64,000 nt of DNA from Azospirillum lipoferum 4B (GTDB lineage: Bacteria > Pseudomonadota > Alphaproteobacteria > Azospirillales > Azospirillaceae): contig NC_016622.1 of assembly GCF_000283655.1 (NCBI RefSeq), positions 2,616,501 to 2,680,500 of the forward strand, in the 5' to 3' direction. The position numbers and the translations under genes were made by a program. The number at the start of each line of letters is the position of its first letter. Position 1 is the stretch's first letter. Below, in pieces: positions 9,059 through 47,598 of this stretch. The notes under the pieces were generated by a model. That model had not been told where the DNA came from and made no database searches. It saw nothing but the letters and a program-made list of their open reading frames with translations.

Positions 9059-10771
9059 TCAGCCCGCCCGCAGCCGGCCGATGAAGTGCTTGACCTCACG
9101 GCTCAGCGTCACCGCCTGCCCGTCGAGCAGCTCCGCCGCGCGCAGGACCTCGCCGGCGGCGGTGCCGGTCTCGCTTGCGCTGGCGGATACGGTGGTGATG
9201 GTGCGGGACACGTCGCTGGTGCCGGCGGCGGCCTCCTGCACGTTGCGGGTGATTTCCTCGGTCGCAGCGGCCTGCTGTTCCATGGCGCCGGCGATGGACC
9301 CGACGATCTCGTCGATGCCGACCACCGTCTCGCCCACCCCGCGGATGGCGGTGACAGCGGCGCCGGTCACCTGCTGCATGGTTGCGATCTGGGTACCGAT
9401 GTCCTCGGTGGCCTTGGCCGTCTGGTTGGCGAGGTTCTTCACCTCGCTCGCCACCACGGCGAAGCCCTTGCCGGCCTCCCCCGCCCGCGCGGCTTCGATG
9501 GTCGCGTTCAGCGCCAGCAGATTGGTTTGCGCCGCGATGGAGTTGATCAGACCGACGATCTCGCCGATGCGGTGGGCGGCGTCGGACAGGCCGACGACAT
9601 GGCCGTTGGTCTCCTCCACCGCACGCACGGCACCGCGCACCATGTCGAAGGAGCGGCGGACCTGGGCGCCGATCTCGGCGATGGAGGCCGACATCTCCTC
9701 CGTCGCGGCGGCGGCGGTCTGGACGCTGGAGCCCGCCTGGGCGCTGGCGGCGGCGACGGTGGCGGCCTGCCGGTTGGCACTGTCGGCGCGCTCCAGCATG
9801 CCGGCGGCGTTGCTGCGCACCTGATGGGCGCCAGCCCCCACCTGCTGAACCACCTCCGCCACACGGGCCTCGAACAGGTCGGCCAGCTCCTGGATGGCGC
9901 GGTGTTTTTCGGCTTCGGCCTCCGCCTTCTGGCGCTGCTGGTCGGCGGTCAGCCGCTCCACCTCGCGGGCGTTGGTCTGGAACACCTCCAGCGCGCGGGC
10001 CATGGCGCCGATCTCGTTGCGCATCCAGCCGCCCTCGACCACGCCGTCCAGCTTTCCGGCGGCGAGCTCCGTGGTGGTGCGCGAGAGTTGCTGCAACGGC
10101 CTGGTGATGGAGCGGGCGAGCACCAGCCCGGCCGCCATCATCGCCAGCAGCAGCCCGCCCATGACCAGCGCGAAGTCGCGCCGCGCCGCGGCGGTGGCAT
10201 CGCGGGTGGCCTGGGTGGCGGCGGAGGTGGAGCGGCCGATGGCGGCCTGCGTCTCCATCACCTTGGCGGTCAGGGCGTCGAACTGGGCGTCGGTGTGGGC
10301 CATCATCGGGATGCCGATCAGGCGGTCGATGGCCGCCATCTGGTTCATCTCGTCCACCGCCTTGGCATAGGCGCCGAGCCGGACCGACACCTCGTCCAGC
10401 ATCGCCCGCTCCGCCTCGGCCAGCGGAATGGCGCGCAGCTCCGCGATCGCGCTGCGCGCCTTGCCCAGGTTGGCGGCGATGGCGTCGCGCATGGCCTGGA
10501 GCTTCGCCTCTTCGATCCCCGACCCTGACAGGGCCAGATGCCGCGACACGTCACTGTGGATGACATAGGCGATGGCGACCAGCCGGTCGATGCGGCCCAG
10601 ACGCTCCGCCGCCTCGCTGTGGATGCCGTCCACGGCGCCGAGCGCCTGCTCCGATTCACGGTCGGCCAGGACCAGGGCCGCCACCGTCAGGACGATCCCC
10701 ATCAGGGGTGCCGCGAACACCCGGCCCGCCACCGACAGGCCCGACAGACGCGCAAAGACACCGCCGCTCAT
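9059..10771 (-). CDS. Methyl-accepting chemotaxis protein
   Basis: A 570-residue membrane chemoreceptor. The first membrane segment is at about 17-38, a helical periplasmic ligand domain of the four-helix-bundle type runs to about 200, the second segment is at about 205-225, and a HAMP domain follows (SITRPLQQL...). The signalling tip is canonical: [20 protein letters not shown], then [19 protein letters not shown]. No C-terminal CheR-tethering pentapeptide is seen. The ATG at 10771 follows GGGGGAG; a GTG two codons upstream is possible. It lies 65 bp downstream of a secreted Cache-like protein on the same strand, so the two may be co-transcribed and work together. Confidence 0.93.
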
Positions 10772-28140: not shown

Positions 28141-28630
28141 GGTAGGGTTCGGCTTCGGGTGCCCCCTCCCCATCCCTCCCCCTCTTCGAGGGAGAGGGGG
28201 TAGGAGCTTTGTCGACGCACGGCGGCAGTCCCCTCTCCCACCGAAGGTGGGGGAGGGTTAGGGAGGGGGCAAAAGCCTCTCGCACCCCCAACCCTTCCTA
28301 GGAAAATTTCCCTTTACCGCCGCCCCCGGCAAGCGCTACCGTCCATTCCATGGACCGCGCCGCAAGCCTGGACAGCCTTCACCGCACCCATGACGCCCGC
28401 CCGCCGACGCCCGAGCTGCGCACCGCTTTGTTCGGCGGTGCCGCCCGCGCCAACGCCGTCAAGCGCGCTGCAACGCTCCGCCTGCACACGGACCTCGCGG
28501 CCGAGGCGCGCCTCGCCACCGCCCGGCGTCGCCGCGCATTGAGCGCCGCAACCTGCAGGACCGACGCGTGGCTGACCCGTTTGGCCGCCACGCTGGCCCA
28601 TCACCGCCGGGCGGCGGTGGCTCTGCTCGA
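28141..28630. other. Gap with a dispersed palindrome and one doubtful small frame
   Basis: The stretch holds a type I palindromic repeat (28161-28270). The remainder, 28280-28630, is covered by a weak plus-strand frame listed separately. No other signal is evident. Confidence 0.5.
28161..28270. repeat. Dispersed palindromic repeat, type I, copy A
   Basis: The repeat starts GCCCCCTCCCCATCCCTCCC and ends with the near complement GGGAGGGTTAGGGAGGGGGC, with internal hairpins CCCTCTTCGAGGG and CCCACCGAAGGTGGG. The same sequence recurs at 42015-42136 (nearly identical at both ends, with a longer spacer) and inverted at 46569-46693. It looks like a genome-wide REP-type element. Confidence 0.85.
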
Positions 28631-42014: not shown

Positions 42015-42136
42015 GCCCCCTCCCCATCCCTCCCCCTCTTCGAGGGAGAGGGGGTAGGACGCTTGCGGGAGTTCTAAGCAAAAGGCAGCGGCAGTCCCCT
42101 CTCCCACCGAAGGTGGGGGAGGGTTAGGGAGGGGGC
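42015..42136. repeat. Dispersed palindromic repeat, type I, copy B
   Basis: Matches copy A (28161-28270) over its first 45 and last 48 bases, but its middle is longer and different. Complementary outer arms would form one large stem. It sits between convergent genes. Confidence 0.85.
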
Positions 42137-43898: not shown

Positions 43899-44433
43899 GG
43901 CGAGGTAAGAGCGGGGTACTCATCAGGAAAACGATACCCAACACTTACGCGAAGTGTCACCCGCCCGTCAAAACCAAAGGCACCCGGTCGCAGCAGAGCT
44001 TGGAGGTTTCTACAGCCGGTGCGACGAAGACACAGCCGCATATTATAGTATTCACTCAAGCCGGGGTTGCAAACTGAATCGAACCTCAATCCCGGCTTTT
44101 TGTGTCGTCCGGCACCTTCGTTCGGGGAAGATCGATATTTCGGCTGCACTCCTTGCCACACTCCTTGCGGCCTGGGATTGTATCCTTGCGCAGCCATCCG
44201 CTCCGGAGTCGTTTGTGTGCACTGCAGGAACGCGAACAGGGCATGGCTGTGCCCTGTAAAGGAAAGACATCGGCAACCGCCAGCGGTTCTATACTGCCAA
44301 GGCAAGTGGGGCCAACGCGTGCGGGCCACCGCAAGTGAGGTTACCGCCGCCCGGCACCGCCCCGCCCGTGCATCGCCCCCGTCTCGATTGGCGATGACGG
44401 CAACGGTCACAATCAATGGGCAGGAATCACGCC
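43899..44433. other. Long gap upstream of divergent genes
   Basis: No gene is supported; the one 101-residue plus-strand frame has poor composition. A perfect minus-strand -10 box TATAAT at 44047-44042 may drive the PAS-GGDEF-EAL gene, with a weak TTGCAA 19 bases upstream. A terminator-like hairpin is at 44058-44098. The region 43980-44260 is AT-richer than average. Confidence 0.5.
44058..44098 (+). terminator. Terminator-like hairpin, possibly of a small RNA
   Basis: AAGCCGGGGTTG (44058-44069) pairs with CAATCCCGGCTT (44087-44098) through one G-T pair, and TTT follows. On the plus strand it is a good rho-independent terminator, but no gene lies upstream of it in that direction. It might end a short non-coding transcript or antisense transcription. 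Confidence 0.4.
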
Positions 44434-45273
44434 ATGGCTCTCAAGGACATTCTGGTGGTCGTCGACGATACGCCCGCGTCCGCAGCGCGTCTCGACCTCG
44501 CGGCCAGGCTCGCGGTCCGGTGCGATGCGCATCTGACCGCGCTCTACGCCTTCACCGACATCGTGTTCCCCGGCTATATCGAGGCCGAATTTCCGCAGGA
44601 ACTGCGCGAGAGCCGTCGCCAGACGCGCAACGACCAGACGGCCGGCATGGCTGCGGCCTTCGAGGATGCCATGCGCCACCATGGCCTGACCGACCGCTCG
44701 GAATGGCTGGTTCAGGAGGGCGACCCCACCATCGCCGCCGCGGTGCGCGGCCGCTATGCCGATCTGGTGGTGGTCGGCCAGCCGGCGCCGGAGCGCGACC
44801 GCGATCAACCCGTCGCACAGCCGGCCGACCTGCTGTTCGAATGCGGCCGGCCGCTTCTGGTCGTACCCTATGCCGGCCGCTTCCCGACCGTCGGCGAACG
44901 GGTGCTGGTCGGCTGGAACGGCAGCCGCGAGGCGGCGCGCGCCATCGGCGACGCCATGCCCCTGCTGGCCGCCGCCAAGCGCGTCGTGGTGATGGCCGCC
45001 AATCCGAAGCCCGGCCCCAACGGCCTGGGCGACGAGCCCTGCGCCGACATCGCCCGCCACCTGTCCCGCCACGGCTGCCGCGTGGAGGCCACCCACGTCG
45101 CCACCGATGTGGTGGAGCCCGGCGACACCGTGCTGAACATGGCCGCCGACGAAAGCTGCGACCTGCTGGTGATGGGCGCCTACGGCCGCTCCCGCTTCCG
45201 CGAGCTGGTGCTGGGCGGCATGACCCGCTTCATGCTGCAGCACATGACGGTTCCGGTGCTGATGAGCCATTGA
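44434..45273 (+). CDS. Tandem universal stress protein
   Basis: The 279-residue protein has two UspA-type domains, about 1-145 and 150-279. The first begins KDILVVVDDTPASAARLD. The second ends in the ATP-binding signature MGAYGRSRFRELVLGGMTRFML; the first lacks the full GxxG-9x-G(S/T) motif. Such proteins bind ATP and help during starvation, hypoxia or oxidative stress. The ATG at 44434 has CAGGAA upstream; an ATG six codons earlier is possible. Confidence 0.87.
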   Translation: MALKDILVVVDDTPASAARLDLAARLAVRCDAHLTALYAFTDIVFPGYIEAEFPQELRESRRQTRNDQTAGMAAAFEDAMRHHGLTDRSEWLVQEGDPTIAAAVRGRYADLVVVGQPAPERDRDQPVAQPADLLFECGRPLLVVPYAGRFPTVGERVLVGWNGSREAARAIGDAMPLLAAAKRVVVMAANPKPGPNGLGDEPCADIARHLSRHGCRVEATHVATDVVEPGDTVLNMAADESCDLLVMGAYGRSRFRELVLGGMTRFMLQHMTVPVLMSH

Positions 45274-45604
45274 GGCGGGATGGGGGTAGGCTTCGGGTGC
45301 CCCCTCCCCACCCGTGGGGTTAAGCGACCACCCGTCTCCCGAGTCCCTCCGCAACCGTCGCGAGTCGCCCCTTGCCGCCCGTGGGGAAAAGCGACCGGCC
45401 GGTCTTTTCCACCTCCATCCCCGTGGGGCAAAGCGGCTGATTCGTGGGGAAAAGCGGCGCGACTCGGGCTTTCCCCATGGGGTTAAGCGGCGACTCAACT
45501 AATAGGTCTAACAACTAACCGTCGACTAGCACGGTCGCCTAACCCCACATTGACTCAGGCGCCCGCCGCTCACCAGGATGCCACAACATCTGGGCGGGGC
45601 GGCG
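45274..45604 (+). other. Origin-like region upstream of repA
   Basis: The gap holds five direct and one inverted iteron-type repeats (listed separately) and an AT-richer stretch at 45493-45540, next to them, which could be the melting region. The left edge begins with a 20-base piece that matches the first part of the type I palindrome. Together with the adjacent RepA gene this is the arrangement of an iteron-controlled plasmid origin. Confidence 0.65.
45314..45548 (+). repeat. Iterons of the RepA replicon
   Basis: The core is GTGGGGNNAAGCG. Direct copies start at 45314 (GTGGGGTTAAGCG), 45381 (GTGGGGAAAAGCG), 45423 (GTGGGGCAAAGCG), 45444 (GTGGGGAAAAGCG) and 45477 (ATGGGGTTAAGCG). Most are extended by CCC on the left and a GRC-type end on the right. 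An inverted copy with one change is at 45536-45548. Starts are spaced 67, 42, 21 and 33 bases, near whole numbers of helical turns, so a protein would meet them on the same face. Confidence 0.8.
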
Positions 45605-46525
45605 ATGGGCGACATACACAGGCTGGTGATCGAACATGGGCGGGACAAGGCGCGCGCCCTGGTCCGGCCCGAGGAACGGACGCTGGTGGACATCGCCGCC
45701 GACATCCTGGCGGACGAGAACCAGCATCTCGGCATCACCTACAGCGGCTTCTGCCTGACCAGCCTGCCGCACAAGAAGCTGGCCGACGACGCCCCCTGGG
45801 AAAAGCGCGGCCATCAGGTGACGCTGCTGGTCGAACCGGGCCGGCTGAAGGTGAACGGCAAGGTGAAGCTGTTCGGCGTGCCCTATGGCGCGCGGGCGCG
45901 GATGATCCTGATCTATCTGCAGACCCAGGCGGTACGCACCGGCCGGCGCGAGGTGGAGCTCGGCCGCTCCATGCGCGACTGGCTGACCCGCATGGGCATC
46001 AGCGTCGGCGGCGAGACCTTCCGCGGCTTCCGCGAGCAGTCGCTGCGCATCTCCGCCTGCACCCTGAAATTCTTCTGGGACGGCGAGAATGCCGACGTGT
46101 TCGAGAAGGGCGGCATCGTCAAGCGCGGCCTGATCTTCCACGACGACCTCGGCGACGACCGCCAGGGCACGCTGTGGAACGACGTGGTGCAGTTGGACGA
46201 GACCTTCTTCCAGGCCCTGCGCGACCACCCGGTCCCGCTGCTGGAGGAGGCGGTGCGGCAGTTGAAGGACCGCTCGCTCAGCCTCGACCTCTATGTCTGG
46301 CTGGCCTACCGGCTGCATTCGCTGAGCCGGCCGCAGCCGATCTCCTGGCCGTCGCTCTATGCCCAGTTCGGCGCCGGCTACGACCAGATGAAGCATTTCA
46401 AGCCGCGCTTCGTGCAGGCCCTGCAATACGCCCTGGCGGCCTACCCCGACGCCAAGGTGGAGCCGACCGACGAGGGCGTCGTCCTCCACCCCAGCCGCCC
46501 ACCCATCGCCCGCCTGCTGGCGTGA
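45605..46525 (+). CDS. repA: RepA-type plasmid replication initiator
   Basis: The 306-residue protein matches the alphaproteobacterial plasmid RepA family (PF04796-type). Signatures are MGDIHRLVIEHGRDKARALVRPEERTLVDIAADIL, GITYSGFCLTSLPHKKLADD, WEKRGHQVTLLVEPGRL, YGARARMILIYLQTQAVRTGRREVELGRSMRDWLTRMG and DIYVWLAYRLHSL-like LDLYVWLAYRLHSL. The protein binds iterons and opens the origin. The ATG at 45605 is chosen by homology to the family N-terminus; an ATG at 45578 adds nine residues. The gene is intact. It lies among housekeeping genes, with no parAB or transfer genes in the window. Confidence 0.85.
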   Translation: MGDIHRLVIEHGRDKARALVRPEERTLVDIAADILADENQHLGITYSGFCLTSLPHKKLADDAPWEKRGHQVTLLVEPGRLKVNGKVKLFGVPYGARARMILIYLQTQAVRTGRREVELGRSMRDWLTRMGISVGGETFRGFREQSLRISACTLKFFWDGENADVFEKGGIVKRGLIFHDDLGDDRQGTLWNDVVQLDETFFQALRDHPVPLLEEAVRQLKDRSLSLDLYVWLAYRLHSLSRPQPISWPSLYAQFGAGYDQMKHFKPRFVQALQYALAAYPDAKVEPTDEGVVLHPSRPPIARLLA

Positions 46526-46529
46526 CGGC

Positions 46530-46542
46530 GTGGGGTTAAGCG
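46530..46542 (+). repeat. Iteron copy after repA
   Basis: An exact GTGGGGTTAAGCG copy begins four bases after the repA stop codon and continues with ACC, like the first copy upstream. Iterons on both sides of the initiator gene are unusual and could serve in copy control or handcuffing. Confidence 0.8.
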
Positions 46543-46568
46543 ACCGGGGTGAAGTCGTCGTCGCGCTT

Positions 46569-46693
46569 GCCCCCTCCCTAACCCTCCCCCACCTTCGGTG
46601 GGAGAGGGAACTCCGCCGCTCTGGCGATTAACCTTACGCCCGCAAGCATCCTACCCCCTCCACCGCGAAGCGGGGGAGGGATGGGGAGGGGGC
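46569..46693. repeat. Dispersed palindromic repeat, type I, copy C (inverted)
   Basis: The reverse complement of copies A and B; its outer arms read CCCTCCCTAACCCTCCCCCA and the complement-like GGGGAGGGATGGGGAGGGGG. The spacer differs. It lies directly downstream of the repA locus. Confidence 0.8.
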
Positions 46694-46827
46694 AGTTGCA
46701 GCAATCACCCCCCGGTCGCTTCCCCCCACACCCCCGAAAACGCACCAAATCCATTGACCCACGTCATTGGACCGCCCTCCCCTCCCCCTTAAGATCGCCG
46801 CCAGTTCCCGAACCGGAGAGGTCCGCC

Positions 46828-47598
46828 TTGGACGCCCTGTCGCTGCTGGATGCCGGACTGAACCAGTGCGCCGTGGTCATCGACCGCGACAGTGGGCTGC
46901 TGCTGGCCCTGCTGACCGCCGGGCTGGTCGGCGGCACCACCCATTGCACCGGCATGTGCGGCCCCTTCGTGCTGGCCCAGGTCTCGGCTCGGCTGGAGCG
47001 GGTACCGCTGTCGGCGATGTCGGAATTCCGGCGCCTGACCGGGGCGGCGGTGCTGCCCTACCATGCCGGCCGGGCGACGACCTATGCGCTGATCGGCGCG
47101 CTGTCGGCCTCGGTCGCCGGCCATATCGGGGCGCTGCCCGGACTGCGCTGGCTGTTGGTGGCGCTGCTGGCGCTGGCGGCGCTGTTCTTCCTCGGCTATG
47201 CCGCGGGCAGCGTGCTGTCCTGGCTGCCGAAAGCGCCGTCGCTGGGAAGCGGCGGAGTTCAGCGCTGGTGGGGGGAGCGGGTGTCCGGCATCGCCCGGCC
47301 GCTGTTCGGCAACCCGACCGGCTGGCGCGGCTATGGGCTGGGGGTGGCGCTGGGCTTCATTCCCTGCGGGATGCTCTATGGCGCCATCGCGGTGGCGGCG
47401 GCGAGCGGCAGCGCGCTGACCGGCGCGCTCGGCATGGCCGCCTTCGCGCTCGGCACGGTGCCGAGCCTGCTGGCGGTTGGGCTGGCCGGCCATGTCGCCG
47501 GCCGCACCTGGCGCACCGCCGTCGCCCGGGTCGCCCCGGCGATCATGCTGGTGAACGCCGGGGTGCTGGGCTGGATGGCCTGGAAGCTGGTTGCGTAA
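46828..47598 (+). CDS. SafE/DsbD_2-like membrane protein
   Basis: The 256-residue inner-membrane protein has about six membrane helices. The conserved motifs HCTGMCGPFVLAQ (about 33-47) and GFIPCGMLYGA (about 185) are typical of the sulfite exporter TauE/SafE (urease accessory UreH-like) family, members of which are linked to copper or thiol handling and cbb3-oxidase assembly. The start is TTG at 46828, with GGAGAGG seven bases upstream. No cbb3 genes are nearby, so the role is open. Confidence 0.8.
   Translation: MDALSLLDAGLNQCAVVIDRDSGLLLALLTAGLVGGTTHCTGMCGPFVLAQVSARLERVPLSAMSEFRRLTGAAVLPYHAGRATTYALIGALSASVAGHIGALPGLRWLLVALLALAALFFLGYAAGSVLSWLPKAPSLGSGGVQRWWGERVSGIARPLFGNPTGWRGYGLGVALGFIPCGMLYGAIAVAAASGSALTGALGMAAFALGTVPSLLAVGLAGHVAGRTWRTAVARVAPAIMLVNAGVLGWMAWKLVA

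Follow-up and report, generated by a model that had tools for sequence, protein, structure and literature searches.

The window analysed here, a stretch of 64,000 nucleotides of Azospirillum lipoferum 4B (NC_016622.1, positions 2,616,501 to 2,680,500), contains an intact plasmid-type replication module, the initiator gene repA with its iterons (window 45314-46729), which possibly acts as a second start for chromosome copying. Judged through its relatives, the window belongs to the Azospirillum main chromosome and is no chromid. We consider it about evenly probable that the module is the core of a domesticated plasmid replicon which, near oriC, would give the main chromosome an accessory second origin licensed by RepA; binding by RepA, firing and its conditional use are inferred. 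Bacterial chromosomes are taught as single-origin. Plasmid-type origins near oriC in over thirty species (17 genomes of type A, the type of the window, and 17 of type C), of at least three sequence types, one apparently replaced by another, would mean either that ordinary main chromosomes have long had two origins or that a new device for plasmid exclusion exists. Each of these readings matters for the question of how six or more replicons are coordinated in Azospirillum.

The module consists of iterons 1 and 2, a DnaA-box-like site, iterons 3 and 4, a 19-base block, iteron 5, an AT-rich stretch, an inverted iteron, repA, and a direct and an inverted iteron. Identities in the following list are means of 15 chromosomal loci, from which genome G028 and the plasmid rows were left out; p7 is a plasmid of A. 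argentinense MTCC4035 (NZ_CP032328.1).

45314-45326, plus strand: iteron 1 (GTGGGGTTAAGCG), exact; core 92% identical (15 loci)
45381-45393, plus strand: iteron 2, exact; core 99% identical (15 loci)
45405-45413, plus strand: putative DnaA-box-like site, TTTTCCACC
45423-45435, plus strand: iteron 3, exact; core 97% identical (15 loci)
45444-45456, plus strand: iteron 4, exact; core 100% identical, plasmid homologue included
45457-45475, plus strand: conserved block between iterons 4 and 5; 96% identical, 80% to p7
45477-45489, plus strand: iteron 5, one mismatch; faces the AT-rich stretch as its left arm
45492-45530, no strand: AT-rich stretch, presumed unwinding element, containing short repeats of ACTAA type; 92% identical (15 loci), 59% to p7
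45536-45548, minus strand: inverted iteron, one mismatch; located ahead of repA, as right arm of the AT-rich stretch
45605-46525, plus strand: repA, RepA_C-family initiator; frame open from 45578, 306 amino acids from the likely start
46530-46542, plus strand: downstream iteron, exact; left arm of the downstream pair
46717-46729, minus strand: downstream iteron, exact; right arm of the downstream pair

An earlier note on this DNA had described seven GTGGGGNNAAGCG repeats, spaced at 67, 42, 21 and 33 bases in the upstream array, and an AT-richer stretch between repeats and gene. All were found again, namely exact direct copies at 45314, 45381, 45423, 45444 and 46530 and copies with one mismatch each at 45477 (direct) and 45536-45548 (inverted). 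The eighth copy (46717-46729), exact and inverted, had been overlooked. Searching the whole window for GTGGGGNNAAGCG on both strands with at most one mismatch gave 11 matches against 2.45 expected, and none of 100 shuffles reached 11; eight matches constitute the module, and the remaining ones at 10765, 46564 and 57018 look incidental. The downstream pair belongs to the module because the p7 homologue has it as one uninterrupted palindrome; on the chromosomes its arms are parted by unrelated inserts. The AT-rich stretch has 56% AT as compared to approximately 32% in its surroundings, and its single-strand fold is unremarkable (z -1.57). The module thus has several iterons beside rep as well as an AT-rich element, both characteristic of iteron-type (theta) RepA_C replication modules. 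The motif TTNTCCAC[AC] is present in 12 of the 15 chromosomal loci of the clade (shuffles: mean 0.03, maximum 2). A promoter and terminator scan gave no matches.

The plasmid-type RepA gene was correctly called intact. Its frame (45578-46525) is open and matches Pfam RepA_C (PF04796) with 95.5 bits at a cut-off of 26; all 12 aligned relatives match this family too. The start is likely at 45605, going by the annotated start of the p7 homologue. The predicted fold is that of a tandem winged-helix initiator like RctB and RepE. Among solved structures, a search by sequence turned up no real match, and neither PHROGs nor NCBIfam yielded any.

Purifying selection on the module is strong, for the protein as well as for each origin element. 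Compared with the window (three genomes were reached twice, and locus L036 lacks a usp match), repA has a dN/dS of 0.033-0.072 in lipoferum-clade loci and 0.097 in G028, at a dS of 0.11-0.26. These values are lower than those of its neighbours, the universal stress protein gene usp (0.138-0.246; 0.316 in G028) and dsbD2, encoding a DsbD_2-domain membrane protein (0.126-0.369). Over the 15 loci, identity is 92-100% in the iteron cores, 96% in the block, 92% in the AT-rich stretch and 86% in the DnaA-box-like site, and the segment 45532-45548 with the inverted iteron is 98.5% conserved; in the spacers identity is 59-73%, and ahead of the array it is 37%. Neither relaxed selection nor broken parts, as expected of a relic, were found, and such strict conservation makes it very likely that the module still does something. 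According to the earlier note, an oriC elsewhere and a lack of skew change here would leave a dormant relic; oriC does lie elsewhere, yet selection speaks against this conclusion.

The replicon carrying the window was judged through relatives with an orthologous repA, the nearest genome sharing 32% of sampled words. In all eight A genomes tested, the orthologous repA is on one contig with the best-scoring (chromosomal) parB, and in seven of eight it is on one contig with dnaA, the exception being G001, a 60-contig draft. Two further A genomes differ in this respect: G068 has repA together with dnaA, the draft G069 has them on different contigs. The distance from repA to the chromosomal parB is 142-176 kb in seven of the eight genomes and 1.8 Mb in G008, which was discarded as placing evidence, its contig of approximately 7.5 Mb with many parB genes looking like joined replicons. 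In G005 (contig of 3,311,395 bp), hemE, ppsR, maf, aroE, coaE and dnaQ are found at coordinate 1; these names were read from translations, and hemE and ppsR were found again in other genomes. The hemE/ppsR neighbourhood, known as the oriC setting in alphaproteobacteria, has conserved DnaA-box-like sites in the four genomes compared (A, C and module-free), and the module lies 178 kb from it in G005 and 189 kb in G015. Placing on the main chromosome follows because the repA contig of the relatives also holds dnaA, the chromosomal parB and, where read, the hemE/ppsR oriC. The orthologous repA was not encountered on a separate replicon free of oriC and dnaA, and partition genes were not found in the searches made. 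Two plasmid ParA queries had no match in the window, and 13 flanking proteins, a set that does not extend to the outer proteins of the window, contained no partition or transfer Pfam family, in agreement with the remark that par and transfer genes are missing. Of the two possibilities offered in the earlier note, a chromid using the module as its origin is thereby ruled out in testable relatives, and an integrated plasmid replicon that is still intact stands. The sections of PMC3899980 available to us describe a typical oriC only on the biggest Azospirillum replicon, with repABC/parAB systems on all others, and contain no mention of a chromosomal repA. As a separate observation, another RepA, of plasmid type and accompanied by a parB of its own, was noticed in G012 (C1, at approximately 3.11 Mb), on the contig that also holds dnaA and the A module; it may represent a whole integrated replicon, or the contig may be a joined one.

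The integrated-replicon reading is strengthened by p7 and by a case of presence and absence, in addition to the purifying selection. Plasmid p7 (164 kb) encodes the nearest extrachromosomal relative, a RepA 87% identical to that of the window, with ParA directly downstream, and bears phage tail, capsid-cement and CII genes; by its gene content it is a phage-plasmid. It shares with the module the iteron motif, the order of iterons, block, AT-rich stretch and inverted iteron, and the downstream inverted pair. It differs in being extrachromosomal, in having ParA and phage structural genes and an uninterrupted downstream pair, and in its AT-rich stretch, only 59% alike. Beyond the phage genes, p7 has a CRISPR-Cas locus of type I-E as well as Qat genes and several methyltransferases. 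Other A-like kin are a 116-kb IMG/VR viral contig and contig C111 of G014, where the A-like copy (RepA at 87% identity) is accompanied by ParA in a genome with a C-type chromosome. As to presence and absence, G028 and its relative G036 are collinear in this region apart from the module; between usp and the following gene, G028 has the RepA module and G036 approximately 45 bases, which reads as a clean gain or loss of the 1.3-kb core with no other plasmid gene.

A RepA 97-99% identical to that of the window, one copy each, occurs in 14 of 37 Azospirillum genomes of a first set and in 17 of 45 of a larger one, with an open frame in 17/17. Among the 14, repA lies between usp and dsbD2 in 13; in G028, dsbD2 is 6.6 kb away. 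In an rlmN tree of 31 rows, eleven A rows fall into one supported clade and G028 groups among four species without the module. The chromosomal module has been inherited vertically. Between G028 and the window, dS is 0.24 for repA and twice as high (0.48) for usp, a hint that the module was exchanged between clades. In G078, of another genus of the family, RepA and dnaA are on different contigs; chromosomal placing is therefore not general in the family.

A second chromosomal type, C, has a RepA approximately 55% identical to A and the iteron TTGGCAATCGCCGAC. At least seven matches to it (at most one mismatch) were counted in 18 of the 37 genomes, namely 17 of type C and G001, so that the set comprises 14 A genomes, 17 C genomes and six with neither; the C module itself was read in 13 of the 17 taken as C. 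It has the same plan as A, with iterons at approximately -172, -150 and -117, an AT-rich stretch built from three CAAATAG-type repeats, then an inverted iteron and repA, and inverted iterons behind it; the spacing is 22 and 33 bases, as compared to 21 and 33 for the last three A iterons. Of the 13 modules read, seven lie between glnD and murJ-trpS, two beside murJ-trpS alone, one beside glnD alone and three beside neither; in G009 (brasilense clade) the distance to oriC is 71 kb. The C RepA shows no amino-acid difference between G009 and five other species at a dS of 0.10-0.16, where GlnD has a dN/dS of 0.04-0.09 and TrpS of 0.10-0.21. In the brasilense clade its dN/dS is thus below that of a tRNA synthetase gene. 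The C RepA tree broadly follows the species order. From these sequences C looks ancestral in the genus and A like a replacement in the lipoferum clade. Long branches among the plasmid rows of the RepA tree leave the deep relations of A, C and plasmid RepA types unsure. A third type was found in the sister genus g34 (L277-L279). In the three genomes read, it has a CAAATA-rich stretch, the iteron CCGGACTTTACCGGCC and a perfect match to the TTATCCACA box. Its RepA proteins are 98-99.7% identical, and in all five genomes with both positions listed the distance to dnaA is 33-50 kb.

Two further observations concern type C. In eight brasilense-clade genomes (G009, G018, G020, G021, G032, G035, G014, G019), two convergent predicted genes have between them a remote pair of inverted C iterons, at approximately 2060-2400 of L217-L224, with arms 71 bases apart in six, 70 in G009 and 108 in G019; its distance to repA is 0.45-0.62 Mb in the four measurable genomes. 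The pair is reminiscent of a distant initiator-binding control site. Contig C32 of G001, a genome with an A-type chromosome, encodes a RepA 79% identical to the C type. It is associated with ten near-C iterons, and a truncated piece of a second RepA comes after it; this near-C copy lies away from the C chromosome site, on another contig.

As a second origin, the module could work as follows. RepA monomers would bind the phased iterons, aided by DnaA at the TTNTCCAC site, and melt the AT-rich stretch framed by inverted iterons, whereupon the replisome would be loaded. The inverted iterons before and behind repA would restrain RepA synthesis and handcuff origins, and an origin so restrained might fire rarely, late or only upon failure of initiation at oriC. 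Tentatively, and with less confidence than for the window itself, this may be extended to the main chromosomes of most Azospirillum species and of the sister genus, which would then be naturally dual-origin: besides the oriC served by DnaA, each would have an RctB-like RepA-iteron origin, no more than a few per cent of the chromosome away, that fires routinely or conditionally. The iteron type would have been swapped between clades (A for C) and the function kept. Skew between the strands from oriC to repA gives a weak and inconsistent hint of firing. The raw skew change point of G005, estimated without windows below -70 kb (a low-GC island), lies 153 kb from oriC (90% interval 129-179), near repA; that of G009 is uninformative (-125 to 223) and that of G011 is at -25 kb (-69 to 19). 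The third-codon-position (GC3) strand component between oriC and the C module is -0.032 (SE 0.015) in G009. Being noisy and inconsistent across genomes, raw GC skew was dropped as proof of origin use.

Several points weigh against a functional second origin. The oriC-repA skew contrast has a size of 1-2 standard errors, and the two A genomes cannot count as independent. The change point of G015 (61 kb, -1 to 147) excludes repA at 189 kb, and the control G011, too, has a near-zero stretch (+0.0015 at -90 to 0 kb), on the opposite side of oriC; a neutral interval next to oriC can therefore occur where there is no module. The DnaA-box-like site is missing in three of the 15 loci, in G028 and in both plasmid rows. 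The dN/dS of C RepA to G009 rises to 0.11-0.18 in the distant G002, G004, G024 and G034. Neither A nor C is indispensable, since six of the 37 genomes have neither, although other chromosomal module types may occur in these six. Moreover, an intact origin need not fire: in Vibrio NSCV2, according to PMC6284228, the integrated ori2 is silent even though it works in isolation.

The main rival, which we regard as rather unlikely, is an incompatibility guard, in which chromosomal RepA and iterons are kept because they handcuff, titrate or switch off incoming replicons with the same iterons, above all phage-plasmids, and so prevent related elements from becoming established. Cognate elements for it exist in p7, with its phage genes, and in the 116-kb viral contig; in a few cases the placing is reciprocal, with an A-like copy in the C-chromosome genome G014 and a C-like one in the A-chromosome genome G001, and no second RepA at 85% identity or more was found in any of 17 A-chromosome genomes. 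Such elements are only a handful, so there are no statistics, and a target of type C is hardly ever seen, since none of 72,556 PLSDB plasmids carries a C-type RepA at 60% or more. Nor does a guard need a conserved AT-rich stretch or DnaA-box-like site. Conservation of the unwinding stretch likewise speaks against regulatory domestication, an improbable alternative in which RepA has become a DNA-binding regulator of the oriC region or a replication-timing sensor and the module no longer opens DNA. In its favour, types A and C both have extra inverted iterons behind repA, the remote C-iteron pair is kept in the eight genomes read, and each of the seven extra A-type sites read is found again at two or three loci; four of the seven are close to where a response-regulator frame starts. 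All seven, however, are situated within predicted frames and may owe their recurrence to coding constraint, and the exact A inverted pair (30-60 bases between arms) was found in three of 14 genomes, each time as the module's own downstream pair; remote A-type inverted pairs beyond it were not found in these 14. A RepA regulating many chromosomal sites was rejected, there being few extra A-type matches in seven A genomes.

That the RepA module is the main origin, with the hemE/ppsR oriC silent, is highly improbable. The G005 change point, nearer to repA than to oriC, and the negative GC3 component in G009 would suit it; the G015 change point would not, DnaA-box-like sites at hemE/ppsR are kept whether a genome is of type A, C or module-free, and some genomes do without either module. 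Least of all do we expect a dormant relic of an old integration. The lack of par genes beside the module and its absence from some species would fit such a relic, but the frame is open in every A genome, repA dN/dS is well below that of its neighbours, the C RepA is unchanged among six species and origin elements are conserved over diverged spacers.

The second-origin reading has precedents in part. RctB/ori2 of Vibrio chromosome 2 resembles the module in the predicted fold of the initiator; RctB drives a separate second chromosome, however, and has 13% identity to RepA, and for the module no crtS-like element is shown. In the fused chromosomes of Vibrio cholerae NSCV1 and NSCV2, as far as described in the consulted part of PMC6284228, a DnaA origin and an iteron origin likewise share one chromosome, but there a whole second chromosome was fused in single strains, whereas Azospirillum has a 1.3-kb core close to oriC in many species. 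The RepA_C replicons of Azospirillum plasmids and chromids are of the same family and in the same cells, mostly 54-59% identical; they have other iteron sequences where read and replicons of their own, some with par genes nearby and others without them within the stretch seen. The F plasmid RepE/oriS is alike in its winged-helix initiator (predicted fold). Iterons, a DnaA box, an AT-rich element and inverted-repeat control are known from F and other iteron plasmids; RepE belongs to a Pfam family other than RepA_C, and the F replicon is plasmid-borne, with partition. We found no earlier report of a chromosomal RepA module in Azospirillum in the open-access literature.

The module is flanked by chromosomal neighbours, and an element outside the module proper lies between its downstream arms:

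44416-45273, plus strand: universal stress protein gene (usp), left flank
46568-46694, no strand: dispersed inverted-repeat element between the downstream iteron arms
46828-47598, plus strand: gene of the DsbD_2-domain membrane protein (dsbD2), right flank; frame open from 46681

The partial-palindrome borders, previously taken as a sign of integration, are no integration scars; they are explained by the module's own iteron pair and by this dispersed element, which has three copies in the window (28164-28267, 42018-42133 and 46572-46690). The element is approximately 100-120 bases long with CCCTCCCTAACCCTCCCC-type inverted ends, and its copy at 46572-46690 is the one that sits between the arms of the downstream pair.
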